Part shown: in pieces, positions 2,124 to 4,464 of the stretch | How positions within the stretch are numbered: position 1 is the first letter of the stretch | Layout of the letters: each line of letters starts with the position of its first letter | Source of the DNA: a virus | Virus record (IMG/VR): IMGVR_UViG_3300025536_000040 | Location: 1-21,114 of that record | Length of the DNA: 21,114 nt | Reading direction: 5' to 3' (one strand) | Position numbers and translations under genes: made by a program | The notes under the pieces: model-generated | What the model was told of the DNA's origin: nothing | What the model saw: the letters and a program-made list of their open reading frames with translations, nothing else | The model's database searches: none

Positions 2124-2212
2124 TAGCCGAAAAGATTTTGTTAGGTCTCAACTCTCGAAACGTTCGGCTAGGGCTCACCCCCGGCCACCGTCATAAAGGC
2201 GGTGGTTTTTAT
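2124..2212 (+). ncRNA. Predicted small RNA antisense to phage ribosome-binding sites
   Basis: No protein is encoded rightward here. The region has a -10 element, then a perfect 8-bp stem TAGCCGAA (2124-2131) with TTCGGCTA (2163-2170), closing a 31-base loop, and ends in an intrinsic terminator (2184-2210). The loop displays TTTTGTTAGGTCTCA (2136-2150). Its core GTTAGGTCTC is the exact complement of the leader box GAGACCTAAC at 202-211 and 1999-2008 on the minus-strand mRNAs and 16932-16941 on the plus-strand mRNA; TAGGTCTC (8 bases) matches 2827-2834. Against the mRNA starting at 1996 the match is 13 bases. Stem-presented seed plus terminator is the usual layout of trans-acting antisense RNAs. 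Function is inferred. It might instead be a chance relic of a third leader cassette. Confidence 0.5.
2184..2210 (+). terminator. Intrinsic terminator of the small RNA
   Basis: CCACCG (2185-2190) pairs with CGGTGG (2200-2205) around a nine-base loop, with an extra G-U pair at the base, followed directly by TTTTT (2206-2210). The opposite strand lacks a T run, so it works rightward. The U run touches the stop codon of the convergent gene at 2209-2505. Confidence 0.8.
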
Positions 2213-2505
2213 TTAGCTTTTCTTAGCTCACGCTTCATACAGGTAATGAAATAAGCCAACTCGCTATTCTTGCCTGTACTGGCCTCGATTGCATTATTTA
2301 TAACAGCCTCGCTTAAGTCCCAACCGACACGCCTGAAGAGCGGTATATGGCTCTCAGAACGAAAGCGATCGACTAAGCGAGCTACTATTCCGTCTACCTG
2401 ATTTACGCTCTTATGATTTCTTATGATCTTATGAGTATTTAACTCGTTAAATTTCTTATGGTCATATGAGGAACGAGACGCTAAAGTTTGTTCGATTTTT
2501 TCCAT
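2209..2505 (-). CDS. Small hypothetical protein, possibly replication-related
   Basis: I place the start at ATG 2505-2503 (98 residues): GGGGGTG lies eight bases upstream, whereas the TTG two codons earlier would be only two bases from it. The N-terminal part is basic and polar (DHKKFNELNTHKIIRNHK); the C-terminal part, from VARLVDRF through GWDLSEAV to ELAYFITCMKRELRK, is helical. The C-terminal YF-x-x-x-(K)RE pattern vaguely recalls the end of phage and plasmid replication initiation proteins, at low confidence. It is transcribed against both small RNAs; the RNA2 promoter overlaps its start codon, so the two transcripts may exclude each other. Confidence 0.6.
   Translation of the reverse strand: MEKIEQTLASRSSYDHKKFNELNTHKIIRNHKSVNQVDGIVARLVDRFRSESHIPLFRRVGWDLSEAVINNAIEASTGKNSELAYFITCMKRELRKAK
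2487..2494 (+). promoter_or_regulatory. CGAACAAA box near the RNA2 promoter
   Basis: TTTGTTCG lies ten bases upstream of the RNA2 -35 and inside the N-terminal codons of the leftward gene. It matches the other boxes but is single here and is also constrained by coding, so the assignment is weak. Confidence 0.3.
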
Positions 2506-2533
2506 TGACAATACACCCCCAGCCCCCTATAAT
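2505..2533 (+). promoter_or_regulatory. Perfect consensus sigma-70 promoter of RNA2
   Basis: TTGACA (2505-2510) and TATAAT (2528-2533) are both perfect with the optimal 17-base spacer. It is the strongest-looking promoter in the window. It overlaps the start and ribosome-binding region of the leftward gene at 2209-2505, and the only thing downstream before a terminator is about 60 bases with no open frame. Confidence 0.8.
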
Positions 2534-2539
2534 TGAAGT

Positions 2540-2598
2540 CAGACTAAGTACGAGAGCAAACTCTCAACAAAGCCTCCGACAAAATTTCGGGGGTTTTT
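2540..2598 (+). ncRNA. Predicted 60-nt non-coding RNA (RNA2)
   Basis: From the expected start near 2540 the transcript runs to the terminator at 2573-2598 without a useful open frame. It contains a small hairpin GAGAG (2552-2556) - CAAA - CTCTC (2561-2565). Its 5' part GACTAAGTACGA is repeated at 2655-2666. The CGAGAG of its hairpin could pair with CTCTCG in the loop of the other small RNA (six bases), a possible but weak link between the two. A consensus promoter spent on a 60-base product suggests a regulatory RNA, a replication-priming transcript or a promoter that silences the opposing gene by interference. Confidence 0.55.
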
Positions 2599-2666
2599 AA
2601 TTTTACCCTGTTATCAGGCGACTAGTACGCTTGAATTGTTTTACTCGGTTCGACGACTAAGTACGA
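2542..2666 (+). repeat. Short direct repeats GACTAAGTACGA
   Basis: GACTAAGTACGA occurs at 2542-2553 and 2655-2666, and a one-base-deleted form GACTAGTACG at 2620-2629. The exact 12-mer pair within 113 bases is unlikely by chance. These may be iteron-like sites for a replication protein or operators. I did not notice other copies in the window. Confidence 0.5.
2573..2598 (+). terminator. Intrinsic terminator of RNA2
   Basis: CCTCCGA (2573-2579) pairs with TCGGGGG (2587-2593, one G-U pair) around a seven-base loop and is followed by TTTTT (2594-2598). Confidence 0.8.
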
Positions 2667-2730
2667 AAACGAGGTAGATTTATCATAACCTATCGCCTTG
2701 CTAGTTGTAAATGGTTATGTTCGGGCTACC

Positions 2731-2760
2731 TGTGAATAAAGCTGTGGAAACAGTGGATAA
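2731..2760 (-). other. Cluster of DnaA-box-like sites
   Basis: Within 30 bases, TGTGAATAA (2731-2739) fits the reverse form of TTATNCACA perfectly, TGTGGAAAC (2743-2751) fits seven of nine and AGTGGATAA (2752-2760) eight of nine, all in the same orientation. With TTATCCACA at 2090-2098 this supports host DnaA binding in the control region. Confidence 0.45.
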
Positions 2761-2778: not shown

Positions 2779-2807
2779 TTGTTTAAGCCGAACAAATTGG
2801 GTATACT
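2779..2807 (+). promoter_or_regulatory. Rightward promoter P3 with an internal CGAACAAA box
   Basis: TTGTTT (2779-2784), a 17-base spacer and TATACT (2802-2807) form a good promoter ahead of the rightward gene block. The motif CGAACAAA (2789-2796) lies inside the spacer, where a bound protein would block RNA polymerase, so P3 is probably repressed by the box-binding factor. Confidence 0.7.
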
Positions 2808-4012: not shown

Positions 4013-4188
4013 AAAAAACAATGACCTTATTCCAACACTTATTTCTATGCTTAGTAGTATTCTTTAGCTGTTTCGGTGGAGCTTATTTATTCCTCATGAA
4101 CTGGCAAATTCAACACGCCGTTCTTTGGTATATCTTTTGTTTGATCGTCCTAATTTTAATTCTGTTTAAGCGAGGCTCAGATGAATGA
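4009..4188 (+). CDS. Small two-helix membrane protein
   Basis: This 59-residue protein starts at ATG 4009, overlapping the previous stop as ATGA. Two hydrophobic stretches, about residues 8-30 and 36-53, are separated by a short polar turn (MNWQIQ); the N-terminus is basic (MKKT) and the C-terminus ends KRGSDE. Size and layout would fit a small holin-like or membrane accessory protein, but no lysis enzyme lies nearby, so I leave the role open. It overlaps the LexA-type gene by eight bases, suggesting translational coupling. Confidence 0.7.
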   Translation: MKKTMTLFQHLFLCLVVFFSCFGGAYLFLMNWQIQHAVLWYIFCLIVLILILFKRGSDE

Positions 4189-4429
4189 TACTCAAAAACG
4201 AATACTGAATTATATCCGTCGCTATACTAAGCGGAACGGCTTCGCTCCTACTCAAAGGGAGATCGCCGCTCACGCCGAGCGTTCTGTAAGTACCGTAAGT
4301 GAAGCTCTGGCTGGGCTTGAAGCTCTGGGTAAGATTACTCGGAATTCAGCTCGATCAGCTAACCAAGGAAAAGGGCGAACAATTAGTTTACCCGGCTCTG
4401 ATTTGAACTCTCGGAGGGTAGACCTATGA
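4181..4429 (+). CDS. LexA-type winged-helix DNA-binding protein
   Basis: This 82-residue protein starts at ATG 4181 with GAGG five bases upstream. Residues 3-70 match the LexA N-terminal winged-helix domain: an opening helix (QKRILNYIRRY), the typical GFAPTQREIA, a recognition helix SVSTVSEALAGLEALGKI and a wing ending in RTISLPG. It lacks the LexA protease domain, so it cannot self-cleave; it is a stand-alone binder. LexA relatives of Gram-positive bacteria bind GAAC half-sites, which fits the CGAACAAA boxes at phage promoters and the two boxes 17-35 bases downstream of this gene. A role as phage regulator is inference. Confidence 0.8.
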   Translation: MNDTQKRILNYIRRYTKRNGFAPTQREIAAHAERSVSTVSEALAGLEALGKITRNSARSANQGKGRTISLPGSDLNSRRVDL

Positions 4430-4445
4430 TCGCCCGAAACCTCCG

Positions 4446-4464
4446 TTTGTTCGTTTTTTGTTCG
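4446..4464 (+). promoter_or_regulatory. Tandem CGAACAAA boxes after the LexA-type gene
   Basis: TTTGTTCG occurs at 4446-4453 and 4457-4464, an 11-bp direct repeat (CGAACAAA on the minus strand). Spacing near one helical turn resembles that of the P2 boxes (12 bp). The pair sits between the regulator gene and the structured region before the next gene, so it may control expression of 4586 onward. Confidence 0.5.

Follow-up and report, generated by a model that had tools for sequence, protein, structure and literature searches.

A predicted small phage RNA may act as an antisense regulator of the leader of a divergent gene ahead of replication and recombination genes

The closest described RNA to the one considered here is RNAII of the streptococcal plasmid pMV158, a 48-nt transcript with a 17-nt free tail and one terminator hairpin, which is complementary to the sequence immediately preceding the translation signals of repB and whose tail is decisive for binding and inhibition (PMC4485353). 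In the case of the lambda OOP RNA, a primer role was set aside for an antisense effect on cII, although the promoter does still influence replication (PMC3985674). Extrachromosomal mycobacteriophage prophages carry RNA-based origins beside parABS (PMC7157519), and the regulatory RNAIII of S. aureus binds two distant regions of coa mRNA (PMC2837412).

We analysed a window of 21,114 nt, which is the entire 21.1-kb IMG/VR virus record IMGVR_UViG_3300025536_000040. The best explanation of its segment at 2505-2598 is that a consensus sigma-70 promoter would produce an untranslated antisense RNA of approximately 60 nt, sRNA2, with the existence and the starts of both this transcript and the opposing one predicted from sequence. 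We consider it rather probable that sRNA2 acts as an antisense regulator of the leader of the divergent, overlapping mRNA that encodes ORF 2505-2209. Scans of viral contigs gave one relative with the same block, IMGVR_UViG_3300025875_000066 (37,672 bp, 37.7 kb), cited below as L009 and G001 (a G001 coordinate equals the L009 coordinate plus 18046). Positions 1992-2836 of the window align to it at 71% DNA identity, and its terminase, capsid and 98-aa ORF proteins are 80%, 84% and 76-77% identical to those of the window. The features of sRNA2 are as follows.

2505-2533, plus strand: predicted sRNA2 promoter, TTGACA-17-TATAAT, hexamers and spacing identical at L009 3068-3096
2540-2598, plus strand: predicted sRNA2, about 59-60 nt, start placed from the position of the -10 element; layout common to both phages
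2542-2557, plus strand: pairing segment GACUAAGUACGAGAGC (copy 1), comprising the 5' tail of sRNA2 and the 5' arm of hairpin 1
2552-2565, plus strand: hairpin 1, GAGAG-CAAA-CUCUC, with one compensatory change (G-C to A-U) in L009
2569-2598, plus strand: predicted intrinsic terminator of sRNA2, 11 pairs in both phages, with two G-U pairs in each

The original prediction of a perfect consensus promoter at 2505-2533 is borne out, with TTGACA at 2505-2510, a 17-nt spacer and TATAAT at 2528-2533. This 12/12 match is the sole site in the window, on either strand, that agrees at 11 or more of 12 positions, and the number of perfect promoters expected in the window is 0.002 for a spacing of 17 and 0.006 for spacings of 16-18. 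As had been claimed, the promoter overlaps the opposing start codon, since the first base of TTGACA is the first base of the ATG (2505-2503) of the minus-strand ORF 2505-2209, and an intrinsic terminator follows soon after, with a stem at 2569-2597 (11 pairs) and then a T run. The RNA would start near 2540, about 7 nt past the -10 element. As to the accompanying claim that no open frame is present, a frame of 44 codons (2466-2600) does cross the segment, but it is not wholly carried on sRNA2, because it begins approximately 74 nt before the point at which the RNA is predicted to start.

Terminator-like sites as a class show no excess in the window (20, against 20.5 in shuffles) and the sRNA2 terminator alone therefore proves nothing; its weight lies in its position and in its conservation in the relative. 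A comparison of related phages had been proposed for conserved hairpins, and in the one relative found the sRNA2 hairpin and terminator are indeed kept, together with the tail and the promoter hexamers and spacing, at the homologous place and opposite the same divergent gene. The predicted fold has an energy of -20.2 kcal/mol (z = -5.3 against shuffles; z = -3.3 in the relative), and in both phages it consists of an unpaired 5' tail of 11-12 nt, a 5-bp hairpin and an 11-bp terminator hairpin. A stable fold with a single-stranded part for contact, as expected of antisense RNAs, is thus predicted in both phages. The compensatory change in hairpin 1 concerns a single pair, which is not significant alone, and the terminator differences between the phages preserve pairing through G-U; with two sequences, one of them the only relative found, such covariation is suggestive only. 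The G-U pairs of the terminator become mismatches if read on the other strand and are compatible with the plus strand only. Specifically, in both phages the plus-strand RNA gives a far more stable stem than the complementary strand does (-13.6 versus -6.5 kcal/mol in the window, -13.7 versus -8.1 in the relative), which points to the plus-strand RNA as the one under selection.

Further searches gave no other example of the block. A DNA search against annotated phages yielded no further relative with it, and no close relative of phages of this group was present among the annotated phage records searched. Searches with the terminase (alone and as a three-member profile), with ORF 2505-2209 (alone and as a profile), with two DNA patterns of the small RNAs and with another neighbouring gene returned no further contig with the block. 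The rightward gene product led to seven loci with unrelated surroundings and no further relative, and the capsid protein, searched in genomes, had one distant Neisseria match. Rfam covariance models at gathering score, whether lambda OOP or any other family, had no match in the window.

The opposing transcription unit contains the following features.

2682-2711, minus strand: predicted leader promoter, TTTACA-18-TATGAT, 10/12, hexamers and spacing identical in L009 by sequence and alignment
2506-2675, minus strand: predicted mRNA leader of ORF 2505-2209, about 170 nt, placed from the promoter and the start codon; antisense to sRNA2 over 2540-2598
2655-2670, minus strand: candidate second target site (complement of copy 2; repeat D8), 16-bp pairing kept in both phages
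2209-2505, minus strand: 98-aa ORF, putative target gene, 76-77% identical in G001 and first in the leftward gene cluster
2614-2634, no strand assigned: conserved hairpin GGCG-ACTAGTA-CGCT, identical core with a C-G to G-C stem swap in the relative

The predicted leader runs antisense through the whole of sRNA2, which is fully complementary to the middle of the leader. At the level of sequence the arrangement is that of a countertranscript, with a promoter of its own opposite the target and overlapping transcripts, and the promoters are conserved on both strands. The antisense region ends at 2540, the G-rich Shine-Dalgarno (SD) region lies at 2513-2527 and the ORF starts at 2505, so that complementarity is found immediately upstream of the translation signals of the target, as in pMV158. 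The 2614-2634 hairpin around GGCGACTAGTACGCTT folds better on the plus than on the minus strand, yet lies outside any predicted plus-strand transcript.

Like pMV158 RNAII, sRNA2 is short, has its own promoter, is predicted to combine an unpaired 5' tail with a terminator hairpin, and lies opposite an untranslated region just upstream of the start of its target, where pairing would begin with the tail. Only one hairpin and one target, in cis, are present in the case of RNAII, whereas sRNA2 has an extra hairpin and a duplicated second target at the 5' end of the leader. Furthermore, sRNA2 is phage-borne, and its putative target has no family match that would mark it as a rep gene. The comparison with lambda OOP concerns another short antisense phage RNA of a replication region that has been considered both as primer and as regulator; OOP is antisense to the cII gene rather than to a 5' leader, and the available parts of the two sources do not describe a duplicated pairing site for it (PMC3985674, PMC12197685).

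Family, PDB and phage searches with ORF 2505-2209 gave no usable match, and its AlphaFold model (pLDDT 49) is unusable. Relative to its homologue, 40 of the 76 substitutions are at third codon positions; translation might alternatively begin at a TTG at 2511. From this ORF to the next leftward gene (1996), no terminator-like site was flagged on the minus strand. The leftward genes of the relative include matches to a polymerase processivity factor (sliding-clamp-like, E 2e-8), an exonuclease-like protein (4e-9) and, weakly, a RecT-like protein (0.003). Therefore sRNA2 probably represses the first gene ahead of leftward replication and recombination genes, as plasmid antisense RNAs do rep genes, a direction of control that we infer; that the repressed gene serves replication initiation is more speculative.

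The extensive cis complementarity is accompanied by a second potential contact. A 12-bp direct repeat, GACTAAGTACGA (D8), occurs at 2542 and 2655, and through it sRNA2 2542-2557 can form 16 contiguous pairs, G-U allowed, with leader positions 2670-2655 (-25.3 kcal/mol). This site corresponds to approximately +6 to +21 of the leader, within its first 20 nt or so, and to the loop region of a predicted 5' hairpin. At the homologous site of the relative there are again 16 unbroken pairs (-28.1 kcal/mol). In each genome the site at the leader 5' end is, the cis complement aside, the best for sRNA2 (12 pairs form at the next best), and none of 1000 dinucleotide shuffles exceeded 13 pairs, compared with the 16 observed. 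Between the phages the repeat has undergone two substitutions and a one-base deletion, the same three changes in both copies, and cross-phage pairing of sRNA2 with the leader fails, the longest runs being 8 and 7. The sequences flanking the two copies are unrelated, so the repeat is not accounted for by the recent duplication of a longer segment. Regulatory RNA, one of the functions first proposed for this transcript, is thus well supported: promoter, hairpin and terminator recur in the relative, and the 16-bp pairing with the leader has been maintained through sequence change.

The shared changes are also what would be seen if the duplicated 12-16 bp elements were DNA sites for a regulatory protein acting at both convergent promoters, and the copies do lie just downstream of the two predicted starts, at about +3 for the sRNA promoter and +6 for the leader promoter. 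In that case sRNA2 would be of minor importance. We regard this as unlikely, given that the element is not palindromic in the relative, that repeat identity extends just over the pairing stretch and that a terminator and a tail structure of its own are conserved in sRNA2. The differences between copies within a phage (two in the window, one in the relative) always place G in copy 1 and A in copy 2, and all keep G-U pairing in the proposed duplex, although three cases are too few to weigh alone. A point against antisense regulation itself is that, with a perfect complement in cis, a second site would seem superfluous. S. aureus RNAIII is not known to be encoded opposite its coa target, whereas sRNA2 is cis-encoded and the same tail matches both sites. 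What the two would share is one regulatory RNA addressing two separate sites of one mRNA (PMC2837412). In a limited literature search we came across no cis-encoded antisense RNA with a second, duplicated tail target at the 5' terminus of the leader that it overlaps.

The surroundings of the locus contain further elements.

2731-2739, minus strand: TTATTCACA, which matches a DnaA box and lies between the divergent promoters; the relative has TTATACACA
2409-2434, no strand assigned: three TCTTATGA octamers inside ORF 2505-2209, found nowhere else in both genomes
2779-2807, plus strand: predicted rightward promoter TTGTTT-17-TATACT, with CCGAACAAA between the hexamers, read from sequence; the -10 element and CCGAACAAATT are conserved in L009
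2118-2210, plus strand: predicted sRNA1, with TTTGTTAGGTCTC at 2137-2149 (repeat D1); anti-SD segment and terminator position conserved

DnaA boxes and octamer repeats belong to the features that are found near origins. The relative retains the DnaA-box matches (TTATNCACA) at 2090-2098 and 2731-2739, with a different base at the free position of the latter; these are two of the three exact DnaA-box matches of the window, and both fall within this 650-bp stretch. The octamers lie inside or beside 14 identical codons (p = 0.0004), in a gene where synonymous changes are common elsewhere. The GC-skew minimum of the relative, at 21195, falls inside the sRNA2 locus, but its range (about 210) is at the random-walk level for the length, hence not significant by itself, and divergent gene orientation confounds it. 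A role in replication for the sRNA2 locus is a plausible extension of these observations rather than a finding.

Two alternatives draw on this neighbourhood. In the first, transcription itself would be the active process, either because convergent polymerases interfere with the leader promoter (2711-2682) or because a nearby origin is opened, with the RNA as a by-product. A strong and a weaker promoter do converge, with start points approximately 135 bp apart, DnaA boxes are close, and origin opening has been proposed for lambda pO (PMC3985674). Interference by the sRNA2 promoter with the convergent leader promoter is possible; as a complete account, however, the act of transcription seems quite unlikely, as it needs neither a second pairing site that changes in concert nor the tail and hairpin structure.

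In the second, sRNA2 would be a replication primer or initiator RNA, for which the RNA-based prophage origins, where a noncoding RNA is encoded at a replication-linked phage locus, offer a looser parallel (PMC7157519). These origins lie beside parABS, whereas neither the window nor the relative has a ParA family match; nor was an integrase or resolvase family found in either record, both of which may be incomplete, and the idea of a phage-plasmid was set aside. The primer transcript put forward in the original prediction gained no positive support: sRNA2 is short and ends in a terminator, and the hints come only from the neighbourhood, namely the DnaA boxes, the conserved octamers, the position of the skew minimum and genes of replication type. 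We consider a primer function highly improbable.

It had also been suggested that the CGAGAG arm of sRNA2 pairs with CTCTCG in the loop of sRNA1, which would make titration or regulation of sRNA1 its main task. This six-base match exists in the window, where the longest complementary run is 11 nt and lies elsewhere, in the terminator. Neither match is conserved: sRNA1 of the relative reads CAACTTTACTTC, and the longest run there, 8 nt, is at chance level, being equalled or exceeded in 80% of shuffles. We give this proposal hardly any credence.

sRNA1 is nevertheless conserved in the relative, and GTTAGGTCTC, which lies in its unchanged part, is complementary to the SD module GGAGACCTAAC. In the window, gene starts near 199 (minus strand), 1996 (minus strand), 2840 and 16943 are directly preceded by this module, as GGAGACCTAAC or GGAGACCTAGC, with GGAGACCTA(A/G)C target positions at 199-211, 1996-2008, 2827 and 16932. 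About six genes of the relative also have the module before them, among them that of an amidase-like lysin (G001 9155). sRNA1 therefore looks like one small RNA that would address a shared ribosome-binding module.

Other repeated elements accompany the promoters of the window. CGAACAAA occurs at or beside several of them (264-276, 2064-2076, 2788-2800 and 4439-4463), twice just after gene 4181-4429. This gene encodes an 82-aa protein with a LexA-type DNA-binding domain (PF01726, E 1.8e-9), and the element is possibly an operator for that protein. ACCGCTTCCGTTT, at 247-259 and 2038-2050, lies in the spacers of two leftward promoters, adjoining the -10 element, with the second copy largely kept in the relative, and may be a shared regulatory site.

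If sRNA2 is an antisense regulator, its action could be envisaged as follows. Any polymerase of the sigma-70 type should use the sRNA2 promoter, so that the RNA would be present early. The target mRNA would begin near 2675 on the minus strand, and its leader 5' end, emerging first, would form a small hairpin, with the loop of which the free tail and the 5' arm of hairpin 1 of sRNA2 could pair over 16 nt on emergence. A full-length duplex over 2540-2598 could also form, after this tail-loop contact or alongside it. The likely outcome would be a lower level of the ORF product, brought about by RNase III cleavage, by removal of a protective 5' hairpin or by a block to translation. Predicted folds with and without bound sRNA2 show no clear hiding or exposure of the SD of ORF 2505-2209, which speaks against SD sequestration as the switch, and therefore we claim no specific silencing step.

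A tentative and rather doubtful extension is that sRNA2 and the leader 5' hairpin form a phage-specific pair, which would set the timing of the replication and recombination operon and confer incompatibility or superinfection specificity, with the duplicated site acting during transcription. If this is true, the sRNA2 of each phage recognises the leader of that phage and no other. Plasmids provide the best-known cases of antisense control of replication genes, and here such control would operate in a phage, ahead of replication and recombination genes. Duplication of the contact site at the 5' end of the target would illustrate a way of making an antisense RNA act early in transcription, and the pairing element would be a simple, swappable specificity element in this phage group.
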